Assembly (NCBI RefSeq): GCF_007747995.1
Contig: NZ_CP036276.1
Coordinates: forward strand, 1,665,001-1,729,000
From: Symmachiella dynata
GTDB taxonomy: Bacteria; Planctomycetota; Planctomycetia; Planctomycetales; Planctomycetaceae
Length of the DNA stretch: 64,000 bases
Reading direction: 5' to 3'
The notes under the pieces are model-generated. The model did not search any database and had not been told where the DNA came from. It saw only the letters and a list, made by a program, of their open reading frames with translations. A program made the position numbers and the translations under genes. Every line of letters starts with the position of its first letter. The stretch's first letter is position 1. Below, in pieces: positions 12,495 through 46,307 of this stretch.

Positions 12495-13700
12495 CTAAGC
12501 TGTCAAGGCCGTATAAATTAATTTTTCCCATTCTTCCGGGGTCACGCTTTCTGGTTGCCGGTCGCTGAACCTGCCGTCGCTTAGACTGGTTGTCCATGCA
12601 TACCGCACACAGCATCGCTGTGCCAGCTTCAGCACAGTCTGCCCAGCCCCGTTCTCCCCCTGTCGGTCCAGATCGAACATAACGGAAACAGTCCCGTTAC
12701 TGAACTCGCAAGCAAGCGCCGCGAGTTTGTCAGCCTGTTTTTCCGTTACCGTATTGCTGCAGACAGCGACCGCCGGTACACCGAGTGCATTGAGATTGAT
12801 CACGTCGTTTGGTCCCTCCACGACGATTACGCCCATATCGCGAACCTGTTCAGCGTTCGCTTCGCTCCGAAAGACATTTTCGCCATAGAGTACCAGCCCC
12901 CGATGAAAGCCCTTCACGAATTTGAACTTGTTTGGCTCCTTGCTGCTGTCGCCGGCGCGTCGCCATTTGCGGTGCTGTGTTTCGTAATTCAGATTCCGGC
13001 CGAACCAGGTGAGAATGTCGCCGTGTTGATCGGCCCAACCGTAGACGAAGTGCCCGCGAAGTAAGCTGCCGGCGTCTTGAGGCAGATAACCACAACGGAA
13101 TTTCTGCATGATTTCGGGGGTCATGTACGGCCGGCTGCGGACGTACGACGCGGCTTGTGGACTCATCTCTGCTACATCGGTTACAAACTTTTCATCGAGA
13201 TTTACGAGCGAGCGGGCGCGTTCATTTTCTGAATCTTTCAGCGGGATATTGAACGCCGATTTGTCTGCTGTGTCTTTTGTACTCGTCGGTTCATTGTGTG
13301 ATTCTGCTTTGGTTGTTCGAGGCTCGCCGCGCACGAGTGCTTTAAGGTCTTCGGCCATCTCTTTAAACTCGCGGCCCTGCAGTCTGTCGCCGGCTGGTGG
13401 GCGGTCGTGCTTCATCCAGTGCATGAGCGTCAGGACGTTACCTCGAACAGTGCAACCGTAGTGAAAGCAGCGCCAGAGCGTCGCGTCGCCTCTCGTTTTT
13501 AAGGAGATAGCACGGTCGCCGGTCGCTTCGGTTTTCCCGCAGGCGAATTGGCAGGCCATGCGGGTCTCGTTCGCCGTTGTGTGCAGTTGTCCCGTCTCGA
13601 CGCCGTAAAAACCGGCGATCCGTTCGACCACGTCACCCTGCTCGGCAAGTTCTTCCTGCAGGGCATCAACGTCGATGTAGCCACGTTTTCGCTCGGTCAT
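12495..13700 (-). CDS. CHC2 zinc finger/Toprim primase-like protein of mobile region 1
   Basis: The ATG at 13700 gives MTERKRGYIDVDALQEEL and a ~401-aa product. Longer in-frame extension to 13832 would overlap the divergent gene and is rejected. A zinc-finger segment MACQFACG...LWRCFHYGC supplies four Cys in the CHC2 pattern, followed by NVLTLMHWM. The Toprim core is VIVVEGPNDVINLNALG with the catalytic E, and VMFDLDRQGENGAG with the DxD motif. Such DnaG-like proteins prime replication of plasmids and integrative elements. A helicase domain is absent, so it is a primase-only protein. It diverges from the replication-relaxation-like gene across a 56-bp gap, which should hold both promoters. 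Confidence 0.82.
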   Translation of the reverse strand: MTERKRGYIDVDALQEELAEQGDVVERIAGFYGVETGQLHTTANETRMACQFACGKTEATGDRAISLKTRGDATLWRCFHYGCTVRGNVLTLMHWMKHDRPPAGDRLQGREFKEMAEDLKALVRGEPRTTKAESHNEPTSTKDTADKSAFNIPLKDSENERARSLVNLDEKFVTDVAEMSPQAASYVRSRPYMTPEIMQKFRCGYLPQDAGSLLRGHFVYGWADQHGDILTWFGRNLNYETQHRKWRRAGDSSKEPNKFKFVKGFHRGLVLYGENVFRSEANAEQVRDMGVIVVEGPNDVINLNALGVPAVAVCSNTVTEKQADKLAALACEFSNGTVSVMFDLDRQGENGAGQTVLKLAQRCCVRYAWTTSLSDGRFSDRQPESVTPEEWEKLIYTALTA

Positions 13701-13756
13701 GCAAGGGGAAGTCGGTAGCAAACAAAAGGCGGGGAGGTTACACTGCCAGCCAACGG

Positions 13757-14647
13757 ATGGCAAGCAGTTCGCACCGTTGGCAGAAAACCGAGCGCGACGA
13801 CGAGATTCTGGCGGCGCTGGACCTCTGCCCACTGGAGTACCGGGATCTGCTGGCCCTCAGCGAGACATTTTCACGACCGTTCGGAAGTCTGGACCGTGTC
13901 CGGCGGACGCTCAAGCGGTTGGAGGCGGCAGGACAGGTGCGTTCGTGGCGGTACGCCACGACCAGCGCGAGCGGTGGAGCGTCACCTCTTTATTACAAAT
14001 TGACGCCTGAAGGGTACCGCACTCTGCACGGTGATGACGATGCGGTACCGCCGACGAAACGGTATTTGCAGGAAACCAGCCCCGGTCGACACCAACATCA
14101 ACAGTTTTTGACACAGTTCACGGTGAAGACCCACGTTGCCGCTCACAGGCTCGGCCTGCCGATTGTCGAGAGCTTTCCCGAAAACACGTACAAGATGGAG
14201 ACACAGCACGGGCCAATCTTTCCGGACCGGCGGTTTACACTGGTGATTCCGCCGGTAACATCACTCACGTACTGCATTGAACTGGATAACAGCACCGAGA
14301 CGATTGTCTCCCGCAAGAGCACCGACACGATCGAGATGAAAATCTGCCGGTATCTGGCTGACCTGCGGTCGTGCGATTATTCGTACCGTGTATTGTTTGT
14401 CGTGACCGGAGCGAAACAGCGGATGCAGAATATTCTCAGCGTTATTAGGGAGAACGAACCGTTCGTCGATTTCCACCCGTTTTATGTCGTGCAACTTGAG
14501 CACTTTCTTCGGAGTGAGAATCCGTTCTTCGATCCAATCTTTGCGCATCCTCGCAACGCGCGGATTGCATTGCTTCGCTCGCATGCCGAGTCGATCTTTA
14601 GCATTGAACCGCCGAAAGCGCCGCTGGTTCGTCCGCTGGGAGTGTGA
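13757..14647 (+). CDS. Replication-relaxation family protein (copy 1)
   Basis: The start at 13757 (MASSSHRWQKT) follows the divergent primase promoter region; upstream in-frame codons overlap that gene. The ~296-aa protein has an N-terminal winged-helix part (RDDEILAALDLCPLEYRDL, VRRTLKRLEAAGQVRSW, YYKLTPEGYRTL). A relaxase-like/nuclease-like C-terminal half follows, with YCIELDNSTET and YRVLFVVTGAKQRM. This is the layout of the Replic_Relax family (PF13814) found on plasmids and integrative elements, where it is thought to act on replication origin DNA. The E-x-D segment is also reminiscent of restriction-type nuclease folds. The TraD-like gene follows on the same strand. A second family member lies at 41494-42462. 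Confidence 0.72.
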   Translation: MASSSHRWQKTERDDEILAALDLCPLEYRDLLALSETFSRPFGSLDRVRRTLKRLEAAGQVRSWRYATTSASGGASPLYYKLTPEGYRTLHGDDDAVPPTKRYLQETSPGRHQHQQFLTQFTVKTHVAAHRLGLPIVESFPENTYKMETQHGPIFPDRRFTLVIPPVTSLTYCIELDNSTETIVSRKSTDTIEMKICRYLADLRSCDYSYRVLFVVTGAKQRMQNILSVIRENEPFVDFHPFYVVQLEHFLRSENPFFDPIFAHPRNARIALLRSHAESIFSIEPPKAPLVRPLGV

Positions 14648-14824
14648 TATCGTGTCGCCCTGCCGGCAGGCCCGCCGCTCTGACGGTTTGGAGCTTTCGC
14701 TCGCCACTCCCGCTAGGGACTGGTTCTTCACTGCCGAGCGAACAGGAGGCCACAGCAGGGCAATGCCCGCTCTTCGAACCACGCACCTTCGACGGCGGGC
14801 CTTTTGTGGTATCATCCCGCCCCT
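14648..14824 (+). promoter_or_regulatory. Leader region before the TraD-like gene
   Basis: The 177-bp gap between the replication-relaxation-like gene and the TraD-like gene is longer than others in the module. It holds no gene. It could carry a promoter or an origin-like element, but I see no clear iterons or hairpin, so this is only a placement note. Confidence 0.25.
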
Positions 14825-17119
14825 ATGTTGTTTTCCGTCAGCGACACGCCACAGAACGAACGCGGTCCGAGGCACACCCGCTCGATTCTGGCGGCGATCC
14901 ATCATGCGTCGACAAAACGCACGCCAGTATCGTTGATCTTCGCGCGACACGATTCATCAGCCGGCCTGTTTTGTCGCGTTTCGGAGGACTTGAGCGGGCC
15001 TGTCCGGCGGCAGTTTCGCGCGAAGTATCCCGACTGCACGGTCGATGAATTAACCGATGACGCGCTTGCTCCGCAGTCGGGACAGATGACATGGACGATG
15101 CGGCTGCGGTTGCGGCCGGATCTGTTTCCGCTACTCCGCTATCAGCAGTTTCATGAAGCAACCGGAGATGAGGCCGATGATCCGGTCGGCGGAATTCTTC
15201 AGGCACTGGGTAGTGATGACGCTCAGGTCAGTTCCATGATTGAACTGAATCTGATTCCGGCATCGCGCCGACGCGTTGAACGGGCGCAGAACGCCGTTGC
15301 CAGACTGACTCGCCCGTTTTTTCGGTCGCACCGGTCAATAGCCCGTCGCTATGCAATGCTGGCCGCCAGCCCCCGAAGGTTCGACCGCTTCGCTGCATGG
15401 TGTCTGGCGAATCTTTTTGCCGGGCGGACCGACGAACGGCCCCTTGACGACGAGCTTTCCAAGACCGCCAGTCGTATGCATGACAGTGAAAAGGAACTGC
15501 AAGCGGCGGCACATAAGTTGGGCCAGCATCTGTTTGAGGTCGAACTTGTGCTCAGTGTATCAGCAAAAATCGAGCACGAAACTGCGGCAAATCTGAAGTT
15601 ACAGGAATTGGCGGCCGTTCTGAACAAATTCACGGTGCCACGATTTGGCGTGTTTCAGGCTTCCCAGATCAAGCAAAACCCGAGTCGGACGAAAGGGGAC
15701 CGGAAGTTCCGATTTTTGCTGTCTGACGAGGAAATCGCGTCGATCTGGCATCTGCCGACGAAAAGTGTGCGGGATACGTCGATGCAGGCGACGCGTTCGC
15801 GGCGGCTGGAACCGCCGGTCGGGTTACCCCTCAAGGAAAAGGAGCCAACGATTTGTGAATTGGGGCGGGTAGCGTTTCAGGAGCGGCGGGACCGGTTCGG
15901 GATCCGCAATGAGGACCGGTTACGCCATCAGTTTATCTGTGGAAAAACTGGGAATGGGAAGACAAGCGTTCTTTTCAACGCGATTGTCTCAGACATGCGT
16001 GCGGGGAATGGCGTTGCGGTGGTCGATCCGCATGGGGACCTCGCAGACTGTGTGTTGGCGTCGGTGCCCAGCTTTCGGACGAATGACGTGATACTGATCG
16101 ATCCGGCGGATTTCGCTTATCCGGTGAGTATCAATCCGCTTGACGTGGATGCATCGATGGCTGATCTCGCCTGCGACGGGATGGTGAGCACGTTTCGCAA
16201 GGTGTTCGGGACGGGCAATCACACGCCAAGGCTGGAAGATATTCTGTGGAACACGGTGCTGGCCCTGATGCTGGCCGGTGACTGCACGCTGTTGGACGTG
16301 CTCAGGATGTTCGGTCCGGATGATCGTTTCCGGACGGGGATTCTCAGCTGCGTCGGGAATCCCGTGGTCTGCAACTGGTGGCAGACGACTTTTCCGAAAC
16401 TGCAGGGGCTTCGGGGGGAAGATCCCTTTGCGTCGGTGGAGAACAAACTGCGTCAATTGCTCACGAACCCCGTGATCCGCAACATTGTGGCGCAGCCCCG
16501 CACGCGGGTGATTTTTCGTGAGGCGATGGATGCCGGCAGGATTTTGATCGTGAACCTCTCCAAAGGGAAACTCGGCGAGCGGACTTCGTCGTTTCTGGGA
16601 TCGCTAATCGTCACGCAGTTGCAGCTGGCGGCGATGAGCCGGGCGGACATTCCGGAAGCCGACCGACGCCCGTTCTATCTGTACGTCGACGAGTTCCACA
16701 ACGTGGCGACCTCCAGCTTCGCGTCGATCCTCAGCGAGGCCCGCAAATTCAAGCTGGGGCTCTGTCTGGCGACGCAGTTTCTGGATCAGGTGGATGACGT
16801 GACGCTGCAGGCCGTGATGGGAAATGTCGGTAGCCTTCTGGTCTTCGCCGTGGGTCCGAACGATGCCGATGTGCTGGCCGAGCAACTGGGTGGGAATGTG
16901 ACCGCGTCCGATCTGATCGCGCTGCCGAAATATAGAGCGTATGTGCGGTTGATGATTGACGGTGTGTCCCGTCCGGCATTCTCTATGGAGACGATCGAGC
17001 CAGGCGTAGTCGAAAACGCGGAGAGGGGAGTAATCGTTCGGGAGCAGTCCAGACGCCGATTTTCCACGTCAGTATATACGGTGGAGCATCACGTTTCATC
17101 GGTGCTCTCAACTTTGTAA
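14825..17119 (+). CDS. TraD/VirD4-like conjugative DNA-transfer ATPase (copy 1)
   Basis: The start at 14825 (MLFSVSDT) gives ~764 aa. The N-terminal ~340 residues are unrecognised. A P-loop follows with CGKTGNGKTS at about residues 372-381, then VVDPHGDLADCV. Walker B is LYVDEFHNV near residue 620, and LATQFLDQ is the sensor-type segment. The DPHGD motif and the order are those of type IV coupling proteins/TraM-recognition ATPases that pump DNA. No N-terminal membrane segment is obvious, so it may belong to the soluble, HerA/TraD-like group typical of element-encoded proteins paired with replication-relaxation genes. A shorter relative is at 39654-41513. Confidence 0.83.
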   Translation: MLFSVSDTPQNERGPRHTRSILAAIHHASTKRTPVSLIFARHDSSAGLFCRVSEDLSGPVRRQFRAKYPDCTVDELTDDALAPQSGQMTWTMRLRLRPDLFPLLRYQQFHEATGDEADDPVGGILQALGSDDAQVSSMIELNLIPASRRRVERAQNAVARLTRPFFRSHRSIARRYAMLAASPRRFDRFAAWCLANLFAGRTDERPLDDELSKTASRMHDSEKELQAAAHKLGQHLFEVELVLSVSAKIEHETAANLKLQELAAVLNKFTVPRFGVFQASQIKQNPSRTKGDRKFRFLLSDEEIASIWHLPTKSVRDTSMQATRSRRLEPPVGLPLKEKEPTICELGRVAFQERRDRFGIRNEDRLRHQFICGKTGNGKTSVLFNAIVSDMRAGNGVAVVDPHGDLADCVLASVPSFRTNDVILIDPADFAYPVSINPLDVDASMADLACDGMVSTFRKVFGTGNHTPRLEDILWNTVLALMLAGDCTLLDVLRMFGPDDRFRTGILSCVGNPVVCNWWQTTFPKLQGLRGEDPFASVENKLRQLLTNPVIRNIVAQPRTRVIFREAMDAGRILIVNLSKGKLGERTSSFLGSLIVTQLQLAAMSRADIPEADRRPFYLYVDEFHNVATSSFASILSEARKFKLGLCLATQFLDQVDDVTLQAVMGNVGSLLVFAVGPNDADVLAEQLGGNVTASDLIALPKYRAYVRLMIDGVSRPAFSMETIEPGVVENAERGVIVREQSRRRFSTSVYTVEHHVSSVLSTL

Positions 17120-27529: not shown

Positions 27530-27557
27530 ATGCATGATAATCGGTTCTATCATGCAT
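27530..27557. promoter_or_regulatory. 11-6-11 inverted repeat, candidate recombination core or operator
   Basis: ATGCATGATAA - tcggtt - CTATCATGCAT: the two 11-bp arms are inverted repeats matching at 10 of 11 positions around a 6-bp spacer. It lies immediately before the first credible starts (27563, 27614) of the tyrosine recombinase. Arm and spacer lengths equal those of Xer/dif-like core sites. An autoregulatory operator is the main alternative. Confidence 0.5.
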
Positions 27558-27562
27558 CACGT

Positions 27563-28729
27563 ATGGCACGACAAGACAACCACCGAATTGAATCAGACGT
27601 GAGCAATCACAAAATGTCAGAACCGTTCGCTAGCAGATCCCTCAGCACGCCTCAATCCCCCACCCCGCAACTTGACAACCTGCCTCCCATCTTGTCGGGT
27701 CGCTCCACAGTCGCTGTGGAGCGAAATGTCGGTGAATTCTATCTGTCGATTGCCGACATCTTCGAACGCTGGATCGCCCGTCGATCGAGCCCACACACTA
27801 AGCGGAGCTATCGGCAGGACGTAGCCTCATTCATCGAGTTCCGCGGCATAAGATGGCCCGAAGAGTCGACGATGTTGTTGCGAGTTTCGGTCGCCGACAT
27901 TCAGGCTTGGCGCGATGAAATGGTCCAAGGAGAGTATGCTCCCAAGACCATTAGCCGCCGCATCTCGTCCCTTTCGTCGTTCTACCGCTTCCTGCAAGGA
28001 GTGGCCGCAGAATTGCGGTTGCCGATCACCGTGCCGAATCCCGCACACGCCCAGTTTATCGGACGATCGGGAACCGATCCCCTGTATGAAACGAAGGCTC
28101 TCAGCGCCAGGCAGGCACGGCAATTGATGGGATTGCCAATTGGGGAGAGCCTGATTGGCTATCGCGATCGGGCGATCTTGAAGTTCTTCCTGTATAGCGG
28201 AGCCCGCATCGGAACCGGTTGTCGTCTCAAGGTCTGCGACATCCATCGTGACCGAGAGGAAACGACAATTCGACTGCACGAAAAGGGTGGCAAGCGCCGC
28301 ACGATCGGTTTGCACGTTGCGGCAGCGGAAGCAATCACCGAATACGTTGACACGGCCGGAATCTCCAACGGCCCACTGTTTCGACCCCGTCTGAATTCCC
28401 GCAGCTGTCAGCTGGCGAATCGCCCAATGCACACCGCGACGATGTACCGCATCATTCAGGGATATCTGAGCCAATTACCGGGGACAATGCAGCCCGTCAC
28501 CGATACCGGCGGCCATCCACCAGAATCTGATCATCCCAACGCAAGATTTCGATGCGTCTATACGCCGCACTCCCTGCGTGCCACGACCGCGACGTTACTG
28601 CTCGACGCCAAGGTGGACATTATGAAGGTCAAAGAACTCCTCGGCCACCGCCACGTCACGACCACGCAAATCTACGACAAACGCCGCCTAGCGACGAAAG
28701 AGAGTGCCAGCCACGACGTGCCGATTTAG
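27563..28729 (+). CDS. Tyrosine recombinase (XerC/integrase family)
   Basis: The product is ~388 aa from ATG 27563 (MARQDNHR) or ~371 aa from 27614 (MSEPFASR); the ATG at 27530 lies in the inverted repeat. A core-binding SAM-like domain spans residues ~50-160 (FERWIARRSSPHTKRSYRQD). The catalytic set is present: Arg in LYSGARIGTGCRL, Lys in HEKGGKRRTIG, HxxR in PHSLRATTAT, His in LGHRHVTTTQ and the nucleophile Tyr in IYDKR. It should be active. The adjacent 11-6-11 repeat may be its site. It probably integrates or resolves mobile region 1; the partner site was not found. Confidence 0.88.
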   Translation: MARQDNHRIESDVSNHKMSEPFASRSLSTPQSPTPQLDNLPPILSGRSTVAVERNVGEFYLSIADIFERWIARRSSPHTKRSYRQDVASFIEFRGIRWPEESTMLLRVSVADIQAWRDEMVQGEYAPKTISRRISSLSSFYRFLQGVAAELRLPITVPNPAHAQFIGRSGTDPLYETKALSARQARQLMGLPIGESLIGYRDRAILKFFLYSGARIGTGCRLKVCDIHRDREETTIRLHEKGGKRRTIGLHVAAAEAITEYVDTAGISNGPLFRPRLNSRSCQLANRPMHTATMYRIIQGYLSQLPGTMQPVTDTGGHPPESDHPNARFRCVYTPHSLRATTATLLLDAKVDIMKVKELLGHRHVTTTQIYDKRRLATKESASHDVPI

Positions 28730-29983: not shown

Positions 29984-30290
29984 CCTCCATTCGATAAGGA
30001 ATTTGGATGTCCACAGCTCGACAGGGAAATGCTTGACCCCAGGATGCCTGATGTGGCATTGTGTACACGTGTCAGCGCCAGTCCAACTGTGGGCGTTGAT
30101 ACACCGAGCGGGGCCGCCCCCAGCGGTCCCCGCTCACCTCAGCAACGTCGCTGAGGCCAACGCTTGTTCGCTGGAATGATTCGTTCGCGTGTATGGGAAA
30201 TCACCGGGATTGCTTACGGTTTGTGGGACTTTGAACGAAATGGATAGCTTTGGACGAGATTAATCAACTTTGAATGGCTTGGAGGTTTGG
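29984..30290. other. Intergenic region upstream of the NACHT gene, with large hairpin
   Basis: About 300 bp without a gene between divergent transcription units, so it should contain promoters for both. The outer arms GAGCGGGG (30105-30112) and CCCCGCTC (30127-30134) pair perfectly; the inner CCGC and GCGG also pair, with one bulged base. A hairpin at this place could attenuate or regulate the NTPase gene. No T-tract follows, so it is not a standard terminator. Confidence 0.4.
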
Positions 30291-33050
30291 GTGGAGAAGA
30301 AATACAAGCCCGATGCGAATGCGTTTGAGTCCTATTTCACTGGACAGTTCGGCCTAATGAATCTTAGTCAGCTCCACAGAAAACGATTTAAAGGGCTATT
30401 GAGCAAAACAATGCTGTCGAGCGTGAAAAACGGTCACGAGGTTACCGCCCGTACGATCAACGTGGTCGCACATGTTTTTCGTGTTCCACCTGCAAACCTA
30501 GTTCACCCAAGCGATGTCGCACGGTTTCTCACTGACTACCCAGATGGGGATAAACCACGCCCTGATCCAGATAGTTCGCCTAATGAGGGAAACGAGGCGG
30601 CAAGACAGATTTCAACAACGACGGGTAAGTCTGATGCTGATTCATGTCTCTCACAGGTATCAACAATCGAAACCGTTATTGACTTTCTAGAACGGTTAGT
30701 CTTGAACGGGTTCAGAGAAAACGTTGTGTACTTACCGCCAAACCTCACGCCGGGCGACGGTAATTCAAGCAAACCAGACGCGCGAGGTGCAATCGACAAT
30801 TTGGCACACTTCTGCCTGCCGGTGCGAGTAATCGAGCAGGACGATTGGCAGCGGTTGGACCACCAGCGGGCTGCGCCATTGCGTTCGCGAAGTTGGAATG
30901 CGGCACACGTTCGAAACCGCATTGTTTCGACAAGCGAAGACTTTTGTCGAATAGATGGCGAGCGGCAAACGCAACCACAGCCACTGGAGTCAGTTCTTGC
31001 GTCTAACCGACACGTCATCCTGCGAGGCGAGCCGGGCGAAGGAAAGACGACATCGCTGTTCCTGCATGTTGTTAAGCAGTGTCGCGAATTGGCGGCGGGA
31101 TTGTGCAGTGGGCAATTCGACCACTTAAGCGAAGAGTGCCGTATTCCGCTGCCATTGCCGCTCGGGAAGGCTGCGCCGACCAAAGAAGACGAATCGTTTT
31201 GTGTCGTTGACAGAGCACGAGATGAAGCCTTGCGAATCGCATATGGACAGGTGGAGAAAGCTCCACACGAAGTCACAGAATGGATTAAAGAAAAGGTGTT
31301 GCGCAACGAAGTTGACCTCTGCCTGGATGCCCTAGACGAGTTGGATATCCGCTGGCACGAATCACTTCGTAAAGAACTGGTGCACTGTAGCGGAATGGGT
31401 ATTTTTCTGACGACGCGAACGTCTGCTGACGATACGAACGTTATTGCGACTGATGTCTGTCATCGCTATCACCTCGTCAGTTTTGGCCCGGCACAAGTTC
31501 GGGAATACATCAAGCGATTCTTTTCGCAAGCCGAGAAGAGGGGCGAACAACTTTCTCGCGAACTTCGCGATCAACTGAGACTTTCGCATGGACTTCAGGA
31601 ATTAGCTCAACTTCCATTGTTATTGGCCTTGCTGTGCCAGTGGTTATCCGCCCGATGGCAGTGGCAGCTCACAGAGATCCGAAGGGACATCCCAAAGAAT
31701 CGCACAACGCTGCTTAGGGACGCACTGCATCAATTGATGGAACGCGGAGATGCCAAGCATCGCGGGATGCCCGTTTCCCAGTCGCCGAGCGAACGAAATA
31801 GAATCAAAGAGACCGTCCTGAGGCATGTCGCTTGGAGATTCTTTGCCGCCGGACCACTGCCAATCGTGAAGCAGGACCTCATTGCGGTCTTGGAACAACA
31901 CCTTGAACATTCTGTGTGGAAGGGATATGCGCCGCCGCACAACGCCGAGGCGTTACTCACAGAATTTTTGGAAGACGGCGTACTCGTGCGCCAGAACCGA
32001 GGCATTTATCGTTTTGTACTTCGCGCTTTTCATGAATTCTGTGTCGCCGAATGGATCTTATTTGAATTGCGAAATTGTAGTCGTGTTTTTAAGACACGCC
32101 ACTACGTGAGAAGGGTTTGCGGTAATGCCATGACCTGGGGTCGCCGCGACTGGCCTCGGTCGCTTCAACCGATTGCCGAACCCGGCTGGAGTGCGATTTG
32201 GCTATTGGTGGGTGAGCAGTTAAAGGGCAAAGAAGTTGCTTTGTTTTTTCGGGCGATCCGCCGGTATCTAAATCCAATCGCCGATCCATATGCGATTCTA
32301 CTTCACGTTCTAAAAGGGGCCTGGCCGTTGGACTGGCCACTTAATACCTCTGACGAGTATCCTGTAATGGAACTGGGAGCACGTGTTTGTGGGGAAACCG
32401 AGAGTTCATGGGGAGCGAAAGCATATGTATCCCGCTTAATCCGCTTGACGAAACACTACTGTTTCAAGGACAAGGTACCATACTTTCTAGCAATGACACG
32501 TAAAGAACGTGCATTGGCATGCCTGATTCGTATCGTTCGTGATAACTCAATTGACGTGCAAATTCGATATCAGTGTGCGCAAGCCTTGGGACTATCGGAC
32601 TCGACCGAAGTACGCAAGGATCTTTTGTCCGTGTCGTACCAAATAGATGACGGTACGCTACGATCTATTTGCACGGAATCTCTAGTCCGGCTTTGCCGAT
32701 ATGGTGACGATGAGTCCATCGAATTGCTTTATACGCTGTTGCTTCATGGTGGCGATACACAGGCCAACCTCCAACACACGGTTGACATGCTTGTGGAAAT
32801 CGACACAGTTGCTTCAGTTAAGGCAATTAAAAAGGCCGTAGCGGCAGCCGCCGACGGCTACGTGAGGTATCTCTGCATCCACCGCTTAGCAAGACTTGGC
32901 CACTCTGAAATGGCGGATCTTCTTGGCAGGATTGACGCCGAAATAAGACGGCAATTGAATCTGGGCGCCCGTGGCTACGTTACTCTGCTAAAGTTTGTCA
33001 CGTTGCAATTAACGAGGAAAATGAACGAACGCAATACAAAGACGAAATGA
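30291..33050 (+). CDS. NACHT-type STAND NTPase, putative antiphage protein
   Basis: The start is GTG at 30291, chosen because GGAGG lies five bases upstream; TTG at 30270 has none. The ~919-aa protein begins with an HTH-like region (LSKTMLSSVKNGHEVTART and VVAHVFRVPPANLV), similar to XRE folds. The NTPase core has Walker A GEPGEGKT (~246-253), Walker B DLCLDALDELD and a sensor FLTTRTSA. A winged-helix part and HEAT/TPR-like helical repeats follow (QIRYQCAQALGLSDSTEVRK). STAND/NACHT proteins of bacteria sense phage and trigger abortive infection. No separate effector domain is obvious; the HTH-like head or a partner may serve. Lower GC than neighbours suggests recent acquisition. Confidence 0.8.
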   Translation: MEKKYKPDANAFESYFTGQFGLMNLSQLHRKRFKGLLSKTMLSSVKNGHEVTARTINVVAHVFRVPPANLVHPSDVARFLTDYPDGDKPRPDPDSSPNEGNEAARQISTTTGKSDADSCLSQVSTIETVIDFLERLVLNGFRENVVYLPPNLTPGDGNSSKPDARGAIDNLAHFCLPVRVIEQDDWQRLDHQRAAPLRSRSWNAAHVRNRIVSTSEDFCRIDGERQTQPQPLESVLASNRHVILRGEPGEGKTTSLFLHVVKQCRELAAGLCSGQFDHLSEECRIPLPLPLGKAAPTKEDESFCVVDRARDEALRIAYGQVEKAPHEVTEWIKEKVLRNEVDLCLDALDELDIRWHESLRKELVHCSGMGIFLTTRTSADDTNVIATDVCHRYHLVSFGPAQVREYIKRFFSQAEKRGEQLSRELRDQLRLSHGLQELAQLPLLLALLCQWLSARWQWQLTEIRRDIPKNRTTLLRDALHQLMERGDAKHRGMPVSQSPSERNRIKETVLRHVAWRFFAAGPLPIVKQDLIAVLEQHLEHSVWKGYAPPHNAEALLTEFLEDGVLVRQNRGIYRFVLRAFHEFCVAEWILFELRNCSRVFKTRHYVRRVCGNAMTWGRRDWPRSLQPIAEPGWSAIWLLVGEQLKGKEVALFFRAIRRYLNPIADPYAILLHVLKGAWPLDWPLNTSDEYPVMELGARVCGETESSWGAKAYVSRLIRLTKHYCFKDKVPYFLAMTRKERALACLIRIVRDNSIDVQIRYQCAQALGLSDSTEVRKDLLSVSYQIDDGTLRSICTESLVRLCRYGDDESIELLYTLLLHGGDTQANLQHTVDMLVEIDTVASVKAIKKAVAAAADGYVRYLCIHRLARLGHSEMADLLGRIDAEIRRQLNLGARGYVTLLKFVTLQLTRKMNERNTKTK

Positions 33051-36672: not shown

Positions 36673-37044
36673 ATGGAAGCACTCATTCTGTTGGGCATCT
36701 GCTGCGGAATCATTGGGGGAATCGCTGCGGCGGCCTGTTGCGCCAACTCTTCGGTCATCAAGTATCGCTGCCGGATCGGCAATCGGTCGTATGAGTTTGA
36801 CATCAAGCGGCGGCCGAACGGCACCTTTGACATTTATTCCCGGAACAGGCCGCCGAATCGCCGCTTCAGCAACTCCCCCGCCAAGGCGCACGTCTACTCC
36901 AACGGGAAAGTCTCCGTCACGGCTGGGCATGCGCCCCGTTCGCTCGATCAAGCCAAGGCGATCGCCAAGCATTGGGCGACAGGCTACCACTCGTACTTGA
37001 GCAGTGGAGTCTTTTTTAACGGGCCGGCGCGCATGCGGGTTTGA
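36673..37044 (+). CDS. Membrane-anchored E2-like paralogue lacking the catalytic Cys
   Basis: ATG at 36673 follows GGAGG. The 123-aa product starts with a hydrophobic segment (LILLGICCGIIGGIAAAACC), then a domain that aligns with the E2-like protein at 36082. RPPNRRF...AHVYSNGKVSVT corresponds to HPPNPHK...THIFSDGRLCIT, and KHWATGYHSYLSSGVFFN to FRWMHGYSTFVLSGKFPN. The position of the catalytic Cys55 holds Ser81. It therefore looks like a catalytically inactive E2-variant tethered to the membrane, comparable in concept to eukaryotic UEV proteins. It could place the modification machinery at the envelope. Confidence 0.6.
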   Translation: MEALILLGICCGIIGGIAAAACCANSSVIKYRCRIGNRSYEFDIKRRPNGTFDIYSRNRPPNRRFSNSPAKAHVYSNGKVSVTAGHAPRSLDQAKAIAKHWATGYHSYLSSGVFFNGPARMRV

Positions 37045-37123
37045 CTATTTTTTTGTTCAAGGTGTCGCAACAAAGCGATGCGACGCCCTTTCTCGAAAAC
37101 CAAATTTATCAGGATACCTTGCG

Positions 37124-37813
37124 ATGTTTCCAAATGACCTCATGAACCGTGATCTCCCGTCACGTGAACGACAGGAGGAATCAATTTCGGCGTCCGGATC
37201 GGCCGACTATGGCTGGCCTGGGCCCGCCGCTCTTCCGCTTTTTCCGCGCCCCCAACTGCCGGAAATTGGCCAGGAGTCCGAGTGCGAGAATTCTCTGGCA
37301 CAGCCAGATGAAGATCACGGCAGCACGGCGCAATTCCCTTGGTTTCAAGCGGACCGGGTGGCGCGACGATCACCGCCAAGGCTGGTTTTTCGAATCACGC
37401 AGTCCTGTTTCCGTGAAACGTTGGAATACCTCGGCCGTCGGCCCCCCGAACAGGCGGGACTACTCTTCGGCCCGAAGGATGATCCGACGCTGGTTACCCA
37501 CTTCATCGCCGAACGAGGCGGTCACTCGACGAGTGTAACCTTCTCGATCAATGCGCACTTTTGCAACGTTTGGCTCCGCAAATTCAAGGCGGCCCATATG
37601 ACGTGTCTGGGCGTGTGCCATTCTCACCCCGCAGGCGTTCACACCCCCAGCGGGGGAGACATCGTATTTCTTGAAAAACTTTTTGCGCGGCCGAAGAACA
37701 CGGATGCGGGGTACGTCCTCCTACCGATCGTTTGCCACGGCCGCTTCTATCCCTATGTGATTCACCAGTCCAGGCCGCACGACGTGTTGATTCCCGAACT
37801 GGTTCTCGTCTGA
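37124..37813 (+). CDS. JAMM/JAB-domain isopeptidase-like protein
   Basis: The ATG at 37124 (MFPNDLMNRD) is used; ATG 37142 is an alternative. The first ~80 residues are Pro-rich and likely disordered. The C-terminal ~145 residues form a JAB/MPN domain. E109 lies in PPEQAGLLFG. The metal motif is CHSHPAGVHTPSGGD, with H166, H168, S176 and D179. The complete JAMM signature indicates an active zinc isopeptidase that trims or removes a ubiquitin-like modifier. The E1 starts 49 bp downstream. PRTRC, CBASS Cap3 and Bil operons contain analogous JAB proteins. Confidence 0.85.
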   Translation: MFPNDLMNRDLPSRERQEESISASGSADYGWPGPAALPLFPRPQLPEIGQESECENSLAQPDEDHGSTAQFPWFQADRVARRSPPRLVFRITQSCFRETLEYLGRRPPEQAGLLFGPKDDPTLVTHFIAERGGHSTSVTFSINAHFCNVWLRKFKAAHMTCLGVCHSHPAGVHTPSGGDIVFLEKLFARPKNTDAGYVLLPIVCHGRFYPYVIHQSRPHDVLIPELVLV

Positions 37814-37862
37814 ACACCGCAACTGTTTGTCTTTTGAACATTACCGAAAGGACGGTCGTACC

Positions 37863-38909
37863 ATGATTGATTTACGACGACTCAAACAGACGCTCGATAC
37901 GGAAAAGCTTCGCCATGCCACGGTCGGGATCTTCGGCCTGGGAGGTGGGACCGATTTTGCCGTCGACTTAGCGCGAAACGGTGTGGGCAACTTTCGTTTG
38001 ACGGACCTGGATGTTGTGGGGGCTGAAAACATCGCCCGCCAAGGTTTTCAGCAGGCCGACGTGGGGACCCCCAAGGTGAAAGCGACGGCAAAGAAGATCA
38101 AAGCCGTCAACGCGGAAGCCTCGGTCCTCTACTTCCACATGGATTGTACGAAGCTGACGGATGAAGAGGCGGACGCCCTGTTTGGGGACTGCGATGTGCT
38201 CATCGCCGCCACCGACAACCTCGAAGCACAAGTCTGGATCAACCGGCTCGCATTACGCGACGGCATCCCCGCCGTGTGGGTGGGGCTCTATCCGTCCGGC
38301 GCTGCGGGGGAGATCATCTTCTGGAAGCCGGGGCTCGACTGCTACCACTGTTTGTGCGAGCACCGCATCCGCAAACACGAAGCCGCCGCCGAAGAGCGGC
38401 GTTCGCTTGACCCTCCCAGCGACGGCGTGACTCGATTTGACGTGGGGATCGTGGACGCGATTGCGGGGCACATCGTGCTGGGGCTGCTGACGGAAGGGAG
38501 TGACAACCGCTTCGGCCGGTTGATCGAACGCTTGGGCGACCGAAACTTCTTGCAGATCAAGCTCGATCCGGACTGGCAGCTCAACGGCCGCGATGTGATT
38601 CGCCGGGGATTGGGCATCGCCGAGGAGTGCGATGCCTACATCTCGTGGTGCACAATCGCCTGTCGTAACGGCGCCACGCTGATGCCATGCCGCGATTGTG
38701 TTGAGTTGCGGGGTCACCGCTTTGAAGAGACGAACTGTGGGGAGTTCTCGGTTTTCCACCGCACCGACTATGGAGTCGATCGCGATCTGGTCGGCGGCAA
38801 AGAATTATCGGCGGCAGCCGATGAAACAACCCCTCAAGAAGAGGAAGCGGAGTCGGTGAGCAAACGAGCTGCGGACGATCCTCAGGTCGAGCAGGAACTG
38901 GGTTTCTGA
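37863..38909 (+). CDS. E1/ThiF-family modifier-activating enzyme
   Basis: ATG at 37863 follows AAAGGAC. The 348-aa protein has the nucleotide-binding GIFGLGGGTDFAVDLARNG. The E1 core LTDLDVVGAENIARQGF contains the D, the R and the Q of the adenylation site, followed by GTPKVKATAKKI. IAATDNLEAQVWINRLA is the second D-N motif. Two Cys pairs, DCYHCLC and MPCRDC, are the usual zinc ligands or catalytic Cys. It should adenylate the C-terminus of a small modifier and hand it to a thiol. The C-terminal ~40 residues are acidic and flexible. It follows the JAMM gene in the same direction. Confidence 0.88.
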   Translation: MIDLRRLKQTLDTEKLRHATVGIFGLGGGTDFAVDLARNGVGNFRLTDLDVVGAENIARQGFQQADVGTPKVKATAKKIKAVNAEASVLYFHMDCTKLTDEEADALFGDCDVLIAATDNLEAQVWINRLALRDGIPAVWVGLYPSGAAGEIIFWKPGLDCYHCLCEHRIRKHEAAAEERRSLDPPSDGVTRFDVGIVDAIAGHIVLGLLTEGSDNRFGRLIERLGDRNFLQIKLDPDWQLNGRDVIRRGLGIAEECDAYISWCTIACRNGATLMPCRDCVELRGHRFEETNCGEFSVFHRTDYGVDRDLVGGKELSAAADETTPQEEEAESVSKRAADDPQVEQELGF

Positions 38910-39653: not shown

Positions 39654-41513
39654 TTGAAACGACTGCTCCCGAAACAGACAGCCAGAGTGCTGCGGTCAGC
39701 CCTGACCGACGACAACATGGGGGCCGGCATCCAGTTGAGCGGTGTGAGTGGGTCGGGGAAATCGCGTCTGCTGGTCTGGATCGTGTTCACGTTTCTTTCG
39801 CTGGGAATTCCAGGCCTATTTCTGGACCCGCACGGGGACGCGGTCGCTTTGCTTCGGCGAATGACGCTCACACTTCCCCGCCGGCGGCGCAAAAAGATCT
39901 GGTTTTGGAGACCGGCCGACGGCGATTGTACGGCCGGCATCAACCCGTTCCTGTTTCGGGAGGAGGGATTGAGCAGTTACCAGCGGGCTGCCCGGCTCCG
40001 CGTTCGCTCGGAGCTGTTTTCGAGCATCGTGCTGTCGGACTACGGCGAGACAGAATTCGCCGGCCGGACACGCTTGCGGAAGCACTTCTCGCGGACCACC
40101 ACGATTTGCGGAGAAAGCCGTCTACCCCCCGCGTTCACGACACTGCTGGTCGATACGCAAAGCCCGCTGTATCCCCTGCTGTGCCAGCTGGCTCCCGACG
40201 AAATGGACCGCTACCAGATGGAGATGATCGCCGCCATGCGCCCGGCCGATCAGGAGGCCGAGGTCGGCAGCCTGCGAAACCGGCTGATGAGCACGCTCGG
40301 TCATCCCACATCTGATATGCTGTTCTCACGTTGGGACAATGTGATCGATTTCGAGTACCTCTACGACAACGACATCACGTTATTGGTCGACCTCTCCAAA
40401 CTGGACCTGCTAACCGACGGCGTGCAGCAACTACTGGCCAATACGACTCTGCTGTGCATGCAGTCGGTCGTGATGTCGAAGCCGGAGCACGAGCGACGAC
40501 GACGATTCTGTGCCCTCGATGAGCTACCCCTATTCGCATCGAGCTTCCCGCTGCTGCAAACGCAGTGCACCGAAATCCGCAAGTTCTGCACCAAGTACGT
40601 CTTTAGTCACCAGGGAAGCGCCCGCTTTCCCGGACGGCATGACAACGAATTTCTCAACACGCTCACCGACATGTGCCGTTTGCACGTTTTCTTTCGGCAC
40701 GGTGCGGGCGATGCGAAGTTTTTTGGGGAGCAGATTTCGCTGTCCAACTGGAATAAGAAGAACAAGGTCAAACACATTCAGCGCACGCCTCAGCAATTTA
40801 CCGAGGGGCACGAGATCGTAGAACTGACCGACCACGCGACGGCGAACGGCGACACCAGCGGGACGGCCGAGATGGGCGGCACGACCAACCAGATTAGTGA
40901 AGCCTTACAGACGGCCGCCGACGCGGCCCGTATGTCACGGACCAGCGGACACTCCGACGCCCGGCAGCATACGCAGACTCGCACCGACAATCGCACGCAC
41001 ACCGAAACCACAACCTGGAAGCAAACCTTGGTTCCGAAGGTCGTCACCCGCGACGTCGTCACGGCGATCCAATTCTATACGCCGGAGGAACTGGACCGCG
41101 AGGATGCTGCGCGGATCCGTGAATTCGACACCCGCGAGGCTTTCCTGTTGATCGACGGGTTGGCGACCTATGAAATCCAAACACCCAAGGTGACCGATCC
41201 CTACGCGACCACGCCCCGTTTCGCACGGCGGAAGCTGAATGAATGGTTTCAGCGGCAAATCGCCAATCGCCCTGAGTTTTCGACGCCGTTGGAGATTGAA
41301 CGGGAACGGCAGGCCTTTCTGGAGAGGCTCATCAGCGAATTGCAGCGGATGGCCTACGAACGGCCACGGGGAACGATTGTCGCTCCGTCCCGGTTGCTGA
41401 TCCAGCCGCAGGCGACGCTCATTCTGCCAGATGATGCAGCGGCCGACAGGCAGCGTCCTGAATCACAGAACGATGTCGCGAAGGAGGCCACCGATGCCCC
41501 GTGGGAAATCTAA
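39654..41513 (+). CDS. TraD/VirD4-like ATPase (copy 2)
   Basis: A TTG start at 39654 follows GAAGGGGAAA; no ATG exists between the in-frame stop at 39576 and the P-loop. The 619-aa protein has Walker A GVSGSGKSR (30-38), LFLDPHGDAVALL as the DPHGD motif, and Walker B FCALDELPLF near residue 285. SHQGSARFPGR supplies the sensor-type segment. A Thr/His-rich stretch (RQHTQTRTDNRTHTETTTW) follows. It lacks the long N-terminal half of the copy at 14825, so it is the ATPase core only. It ends overlapping the next gene by 20 bp. Confidence 0.8.
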   Translation: MKRLLPKQTARVLRSALTDDNMGAGIQLSGVSGSGKSRLLVWIVFTFLSLGIPGLFLDPHGDAVALLRRMTLTLPRRRRKKIWFWRPADGDCTAGINPFLFREEGLSSYQRAARLRVRSELFSSIVLSDYGETEFAGRTRLRKHFSRTTTICGESRLPPAFTTLLVDTQSPLYPLLCQLAPDEMDRYQMEMIAAMRPADQEAEVGSLRNRLMSTLGHPTSDMLFSRWDNVIDFEYLYDNDITLLVDLSKLDLLTDGVQQLLANTTLLCMQSVVMSKPEHERRRRFCALDELPLFASSFPLLQTQCTEIRKFCTKYVFSHQGSARFPGRHDNEFLNTLTDMCRLHVFFRHGAGDAKFFGEQISLSNWNKKNKVKHIQRTPQQFTEGHEIVELTDHATANGDTSGTAEMGGTTNQISEALQTAADAARMSRTSGHSDARQHTQTRTDNRTHTETTTWKQTLVPKVVTRDVVTAIQFYTPEELDREDAARIREFDTREAFLLIDGLATYEIQTPKVTDPYATTPRFARRKLNEWFQRQIANRPEFSTPLEIERERQAFLERLISELQRMAYERPRGTIVAPSRLLIQPQATLILPDDAAADRQRPESQNDVAKEATDAPWEI

Positions 41514-42462
41514 CATTGTGCCGTCCCCGATTCGGTTGCTGCCGGCCCACATCGAGCAGTTGCAGACGCTCGGTGAAGTCGAACTGCTCGACTCGGACGA
41601 TTTCGGTTCACGGTTTTATCCGAACGATAGGACGGGCCAATCCTATCGCCGGCGGTTGCGGCTCTACACGCAGCACGGCCTCCTGCAACGGATCGAGCTA
41701 CCGCTCGTATCGACCGGACGACAAGGGAGATTACCAAATATTTACCGGCTGACTCCCAAGGGGGCGGACCTGCTGGAACAGGAAACTGGCCAGCGGCCTC
41801 CACGATATGCCCGCAGCGATCCGCCGCGCCAATCCCACACTTGGCTGCACCGGCTCGGCATCGCGAAGATTCAGCTCAGCTTCAACGACGCCTGTGCCCA
41901 GGCGGGTCTGCCCAAGCCGGACTGGCTGCTGGAGTACGACACGCTGCCGGAGGCAAAGATCAATGGGCCGATGTCCGAGCGGTTCGTTCTGTGCCACCAG
42001 TTTCCGTTGGCCAACGGCAAAAAGCTCACCGCTTGGCCGGATGCGGCCGCCCTGTTGCGCGTACCTCAAGCCGGGCAGATTTGGCGGCTGGGACTGTTTG
42101 TCGAGTACGACCGTTCGACGGAAACGCACACGCAGCTTAACGGCACGAAGCGGTCGCACGCCGGAAACGGCAAGCTTGACGGCTACAGTGCGTTGTTGAA
42201 GACAGGTGAATACCAACAATATTGGCCAGACGCCGACGGCGTGCGCATCCTATTCGTCGTCCGCTCCGAAGGCCGGCTGCGGAATATCGCTGAGACGTTC
42301 CGCGATCACGGGGTGGCCGATTCCGTGCGGTTTGCCGTTGAGGCGGAGATGACACCCGAGCGGGTTCTCAATTCACAGATTTGGCGAACAATCGACGGTG
42401 AAAGACGCAGTATCATTCGCGGCAGCACAAGCACGGTGCGAGATTCCGATGCAACTTCTTAG
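41494..42462 (+). CDS. Replication-relaxation family protein (copy 2)
   Basis: ATG at 41494 (MPRGKSNIVPSP) follows AAGGAGG and lies inside the end of the TraD-like gene. The 322-aa protein has the two-part layout of the copy at 13757. A winged-helix start (RLRLYTQHGLLQRIEL, IYRLTPKGADLLEQE) is followed by a C-terminal half with LGLFVEYDRSTET and IRILFVVRSEGRLRNI-like strands. The FVEYDRSTE site is equivalent to CIELDNSTET of copy 1. These proteins act on origin DNA of plasmids and integrative elements. Confidence 0.72.
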   Translation: MPRGKSNIVPSPIRLLPAHIEQLQTLGEVELLDSDDFGSRFYPNDRTGQSYRRRLRLYTQHGLLQRIELPLVSTGRQGRLPNIYRLTPKGADLLEQETGQRPPRYARSDPPRQSHTWLHRLGIAKIQLSFNDACAQAGLPKPDWLLEYDTLPEAKINGPMSERFVLCHQFPLANGKKLTAWPDAAALLRVPQAGQIWRLGLFVEYDRSTETHTQLNGTKRSHAGNGKLDGYSALLKTGEYQQYWPDADGVRILFVVRSEGRLRNIAETFRDHGVADSVRFAVEAEMTPERVLNSQIWRTIDGERRSIIRGSTSTVRDSDATS

Positions 42463-44042: not shown

Positions 44043-44202
<160 letters not shown>

Positions 44203-46158: not shown

Positions 46159-46307
46159 CTCAATTGGATAGAGCATCGGTCTACGAAACCGAAGGTTAGT
46201 GGTTCGAATCCACTGAGGTGTACTTCTTCTTGCTTCGCCACGCTGGCGAGGCAACCCGCTGCCGACGCATGTGGTGGCATTGCGACTTTATCCGACTGCT
46301 GCGGATT
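46159..46307 (+). repeat. Direct repeat copy 2: partial tRNA-Arg (pseudo-tRNA) and flank
   Basis: From ctcaattgg on, the sequence matches the tRNA-Arg at 44045 (anticodon loop and T-arm identical, 3' acceptor gaggtgt instead of ggggtgt) and its flank, with a few changes. The 5' acceptor strand and positions 8-9 of the tRNA are missing, so it cannot fold as a tRNA. It is a degenerate copy or attachment-site relic. The spacing between the two copies is ~2.1 kb. Confidence 0.75.

Follow-up and report, generated by a model that had tools for sequence, protein, structure and literature searches.

In Cre/loxP of P1, ResD/rfsF of F and TnpI/IRS of Tn4430, a tyrosine recombinase carried by the element and a site beside its gene are used in resolution, with sequences and arm lengths that differ from those of the site described here. 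The inner letters of dif are ATAA..TTAT. The account given in PMC5357621 puts XerCD/dif at 28 bp with a centre of 6-8 bp, and describes xerS as immediately adjacent to difSL, the two forming a single module, and difH as lying near xerH; linked modules of recombinase and site of this kind, XerS/difSL and XerH/difH, are already known from the descriptions in PMC5357621 and PMC2731167. XerL/dif of the Legionellales, as characterised in PMC9765430, employs a single recombinase, and XerL occurs on a Coxiella plasmid, while a classification of simple tyrosine recombinases presents several as linked to mobile elements (PMC8138268). In the planctomycetes, dif prediction is reported to have failed in the one species tried (PMC3025954), and for this reason dedicated sites are of interest in this group.

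In the 64-kb stretch of planctomycete DNA analysed here (the window, positions 1,665,001-1,729,000 of its 7.77-Mb genome), a 28-bp inverted repeat lies at the 5' end of a tyrosine recombinase gene, with the following components.

27530 to 27540, plus strand: left 11-bp half-site, ATGCATGATAA, aligned to 15 homologous sites
27541 to 27546, plus strand: 6-bp central region, TCGGTT, from the alignment with homologous sites
27547 to 27557, plus strand: right 11-bp half-site, CTATCATGCAT, from its letters and the alignment with homologous sites
27563 to 28729, plus strand: tyrosine recombinase gene, with Pfam Phage_int_SAM_1 and Phage_integrase

The 11-6-11 repeat of the original prediction is present letter for letter at 27530-27557, with one mismatch between its arms, and can also be read as perfect 10-bp arms around 8 bp. 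We propose that it is very probably the site cut by the adjoining recombinase. In our judgement it is likely to be the core site at which a single Xer-like recombinase, linked to its own target, carries out crossover; the enzyme would most probably resolve multimers of plasmid-like elements.

Like XerS/difSL and XerH/difH in their published accounts, the locus combines one recombinase with a site adjoining its gene, in the form of a dyad with a short centre. Those systems are described as resolving chromosomal dimers at a site near the terminus, whereas the genes seen here are accessory and are found on plasmids and islands; difSL is given as 31 bp and the centre of difH as 6-10 bp, whereas the present site is a symmetric 11-6-11. 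Nor does the recombinase replace XerCD or come close to universality in its clade, as XerS and XerH do, since it was found in 3 of 392 Planctomycetota genomes and 2 of 396 acidobacterial genomes, each time with the site, and beside ordinary Xer-type recombinases. The idea that the repeat is the dif of this genome was set aside because the module is absent from most genomes (it is present in those 3 of 392). With XerCD/dif and the plasmid sites cer/psi, as these are described, the repeat shares a 28-bp, 11-6-11 geometry and the inner ATAA..TTAT; there, however, two different host recombinases act on asymmetric arms, and here a single dedicated enzyme is paired with nearly symmetric ones. XerL, going by its published description and not by sequence, is similar in being a single, partly plasmid-borne recombinase, but serves chromosomal dif. 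The resemblance to Cre/loxP, ResD/rfsF and TnpI/IRS lies in an element-borne tyrosine recombinase with an adjoining site; as a point of difference, the loci compared here have no conserved transposase. The family appears akin in its workings to the known linked modules, yet by sequence it is not XerC, XerD, XerS or XerH. A literature search, the coverage of which stopped short of preprints and most subscription journals, found no paper describing the present module.

The longest open reading frame, 27530-28729, has its first possible ATG at 27530 and would take in the repeat, an overlap already noted in the original prediction. In relatives the site precedes the start, which makes 27563 or 27614 the probable first position of this gene; the repeat would then lie 5' of the gene and, as predicted, right before it. 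The protein is a tyrosine recombinase by its SAM-like core-binding and Phage_integrase catalytic domains and by its R-K-H-R-H-Y residues; the putative catalytic residues R215, K241, H336, R339, H362 and Y371 (numbered from 27563) are invariant in 11 of 11 aligned proteins, and a putative role can be given to each from the R-K-H-R-H/W-Y pattern. Its scores fall short of the curated equivalog cut-offs of the XerC (120.6 bits against 335) and XerD (116.3 bits against 329.6) models, as well as those of XerS (56.6 bits against 267) and of the integron integrase IntI, TIGR02249 (60.8 bits against 265), and its site is single-copy. The nearest PDB sequences are XerD and XerA-type recombinases, with E about 1e-10, while XerH was reached with an E of 6e-5 only, which does not place the protein in that family. 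In a tree limited to the sequences gathered here, with six short rows dropped, a warning of long branches and group labels of our own choosing, the recombinase falls in a clade separate from the Xer clade; loci L003 and L006 lie in the Xer-type clade and L004 in a second group. Two other Xer-type genes sit in the window's genome, and the three other recombinase loci found there are 25-31% identical to it in long segments. No close paralogue was found in that genome, and no other recombinase in the 64-kb window.

Taken alone, the repeat is statistically unremarkable, because 11-6-11 repeats with no more than one mismatch number five in the real window, against 0 to 2 in each of 40 Markov windows of the same composition and of 64 kb each (25 in total, 0.6 per window); it is conservation that makes this one stand out. 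The outer arms are symmetric, and the single mismatch is in the right inner arm, where C replaces the first T of the family's TTATC. A functionless repeat arisen by chance, or a decayed module, would be in keeping with the number of such repeats in the window, with this inner mismatch and with the absence of a partner site. We regard it, however, as the least probable of the readings considered here, given that the position, core letters and spacer agree with the family pattern (the other strand of the centre reads AACCGA and agrees with the consensus AAYCKG at five of six positions) and that the putative catalytic residues are intact.

A homologous 28-bp dyad is found 5' of related recombinase genes in both Planctomycetota and Acidobacteriota, and the original reading of the repeat as a core site of Xer/dif type draws support from the conservation of the dyad, the 6-bp centre and the 5' position across two phyla. 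The loci compared came from a scan of genome contigs (23), with L008, pK2D_1, L090, L091 and L149 in addition; L077 and L089 entered through the site search and not through the protein, and L056 to L059, which are fragments, were left out. At 18 of 27 loci, counting the window and the degenerate site of L050, the site lies 5' of the estimated start at a distance of 450 bp or less, and at none of the 27 does it lie within 480 bp 3' of the gene. Failure of the gene to be conserved with the repeat was to have counted against the original prediction, and on these figures the two are clearly conserved together. When only loci that can be judged are counted the fraction is 19 of 22, and 17 of 20 once L077 and L089 are set aside. 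L090 is outside the 450-bp limit, but about 530 bp upstream of its gene there is a perfect site; the gene of L046 is 5'-truncated, with the site at its end; the protein match begins only at residue 94 or 102 in L052 and L055; and the upstream DNA of L051 and L053 is too short. Three loci with intact 5' ends, L040, L041 and L048, have no nearby site, the matching site of L041 being 12 kb away. Between individual loci the shared sequence can be confined to the site itself, as in L039 and L042, which have exactly 28 bp in common (100%) within unalignable flanks, and pK2D_1 and pI41_1 have 49 bp (90%) in common at the site.

Sixteen sites were aligned, and since they were picked for having the site they gauge the upkeep of the dyad and not its frequency. 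The inner letters GATAA and TTATC hardly vary, nor does the centre AAYCKG; the six outer positions vary between elements yet match across the dyad. Some 90.3% of dyad cells are paired; covariation is 0.456, against 0.156 (sd 0.031) in shuffled alignments, none of 500 shuffles reaching the observed value, and at most 0.130 in slid controls; and 32 cells are changed on both sides, against 11.7 in shuffles. That a 28-bp dyad and its asymmetric 6-bp centre are kept, and the flanks are not, is what would be expected of a recombination site. Covariation alone would equally suit a hairpin, and a sequence that regulates the recombinase gene as operator or leader hairpin, and is never cut, would also be symmetric and would occupy a promoter or leader position such as this. 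Such a role is nevertheless improbable, because the asymmetric centre is conserved, both the window and L038 have the site in reverse orientation relative to the gene, the distance between site and estimated start ranges from 2 to about 530 nt, and the geometry and inner ATAA/TTAT suit Xer-type sites. The autoregulatory operator offered in the original prediction thus loses ground as a plain operator, on account of the conserved spacer and the reversed orientation, while autoregulation is possible as a side effect.

The motif GATAAAAYCKGTTATC occurs four times in the 392 Planctomycetota genomes, once at a recombinase gene of the window's lineage (G329) and three times inside open reading frames of unrelated kind with no close recombinase. 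In IMG/VR, 87 stretches contain the exact core, and among the 80 that were tested (L161-L240) none has a recombinase of the window's lineage and one has at least five of six outer positions symmetric; a protein search of IMG/VR for the recombinase returned none. From the 80 of 87 stretches tested, the IMG/VR occurrences were rejected as true sites and are regarded as chance matches.

The module is carried on plasmids: pK2D_1 is a circular plasmid of 70 kb with RepA, ParA/ParB and TraI, and pI41_1 a plasmid of 54 kb. It also occurs on an acidobacterial contig of 43 kb (G066) that overlaps itself by 149 bp at its ends and encodes an RPA-like initiator scoring under the Pfam cut-off. Each of the three has one AAYCKG-type site, that is, one site per monomer. 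No other widely conserved neighbour gene was found at 21 loci, where the recombinase and its shadow frames alone recur widely. Judging by gene content, the module of the window sits in a plasmid-like chromosomal island with mobilisation-type genes, which include two pairs.

13577 to 17119, plus strand: Replic_Relax protein and TrwB-like ATPase, plasmid-like surroundings
39654 to 42462, plus strand: TraD-like ATPase (below cut-off) and Replic_Relax protein, plasmid-like surroundings

Besides these two pairs of Replic_Relax and TraD/TrwB-like genes, the surroundings contain a ParE toxin, a weak match to DUF932, and ThiF and JAB genes; the JAB-like and ThiF-like genes adjoin at 37004-38909. A 926-aa protein encoded at 30270-33050 has weak matches to NACHT and HEAT and is perhaps a defence ATPase. 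A tRNA-Arg gene at 44045-44119 has a 57-bp copy at 46159-46215, 2.1 kb downstream, together with further in-register repeats, which are likely to be an integration or duplication scar. The tRNA-Arg repeat (44055/46159) was considered as a boundary of the module and rejected, as it does not enclose it.

In proposing how the module works, we infer binding, the positions of cleavage and resolution from sequence. Two recombinase monomers would bind the two 11-bp arms and cut where these meet the 6-bp central region, and the DNA would be recombined by exchange between a pair of such sites. One enzyme and one site just 5' of its gene would then make up a self-contained module on plasmids and plasmid-like islands, the likeliest task of which would be the resolution of the element's multimers or cointegrates, with recombination between the direct repeats of a dimer yielding two monomers. 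In the window's chromosome the partner site is absent, and action would be limited to a duplicated or excised element or to incoming DNA.

The original prediction had allowed for either an att or a resolution site, had called for a genome search for second copies, and had taken the want of any to speak against it. That search found no second copy in the 7.77-Mb single-contig genome of the window (up to three mismatches, free spacer), and no half-site with its spacer elsewhere in it (up to two mismatches). The single copy and the symmetric arms would therefore indicate an intact site, and not a hybrid attL or attR. Because there is a single intact copy in the 7.77-Mb genome and single copies on the plasmids, resolution is favoured, and the att half of the earlier suggestion loses for want of a second site; plasmid carriage and copy number make resolution seem the better reading.

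The repeat could instead be an attachment site, with the recombinase inserting the island at a matching chromosomal site and excising it again, a reading which ranks second because there is neither a second copy nor a half-site with spacer, and which we consider unlikely. It would suit the fact that the only recombinase found in the window lies in a plasmid-like island. It would also suit the contig ends: among 14 draft contigs, which do not include the 184-kb contig of L149, four stop no more than 80 nt from the site where 0.195 would be expected (P 2.5e-5, for a threshold set after the data had been inspected), as a variable junction might cause. The distances are 0 nt in L037, 9 nt in L043, 41 nt in L090 and 80 nt in L091. 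Junctions that vary in natural populations could account for such ends, and so could repeats or insertions nearby. The window itself lacks two direct copies flanking an element as attL and attR, there being no second site within about 115 kb, and its outer arms are symmetric, unlike those of a hybrid attL or attR; the plasmids and most contigs likewise have single sites. One ambiguous pair is present in G068, where two direct copies with the spacer TGTATT lie 27.6 kb apart, one of them touching the recombinase gene. That gene is 5'-truncated, however, and another integrase lies inside the interval, so the pair may belong to another enzyme and was not accepted as proof of attachment. The region concerned (G068:C43, 111735-143350) holds a recombinase array and several Xer-like sites near a tRNA-Asp gene, the pair with the same spacer included.

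As a core site for resolution, the repeat would provide a candidate target for an entire recombinase lineage, borne by plasmids and islands, whose members are recorded merely as 'XerD' or 'integrase', in two phyla, Planctomycetota and Acidobacteriota, with few genetic tools. Symmetric sites with differing arms, each served by a single enzyme, are possible orthogonal recombination tools, and the site could serve as a handle for spotting plasmid-derived islands.

Sites with a CGTCCT centre were found on some contigs. Searching 59 relatives with the 14-mer ATAACGTCCTTTAT gave nine matches in six genomes, against two matches in one genome for the reversed 14-mer; eight of the nine have another tyrosine recombinase in the 3-kb locus and the ninth is separated from such a gene by 1.4 kb. 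At L150-L158 (G023, G026, G031, G051, G052 and G053) a 28-bp dyad with the centre CGTCCT/AGGACG lies near the 5' end of the recombinase. Across the 34 recombinase loci from L003 to L036, in which two genes are counted twice, a strict Xer-like dyad is present upstream at five (L008 among them) and downstream at none, and the arrangement is therefore not confined to the lineage of the window. We tentatively suggest that Planctomycetota and Acidobacteriota may be home to a wide and as yet undescribed class of recombinase modules linked to their own sites, each lineage having a private 28-bp site (centre AAYCKG or AGGACG/CGTCCT) whose outer arms vary in concert from one element to the next. If so, the coevolving pairs would amount to a naturally occurring series of single-enzyme recombination systems insulated from one another, and islands would accrete through recombination between sites of the same kind.

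The sites of both lineages occur side by side at G066:C90 (31054 and 31143) and G067:C326 (19201 and 19232), and both are present on the plasmid pI41_1 (31347 and 33932); the two modules may cluster or cooperate. In the window's own genome, a degenerate site, GTGATAAATAA-CATCCT-TTATTTCCCCC, precedes the aligned start of another recombinase, L004 (G000:C1, near 4615112), by about 200 bp.
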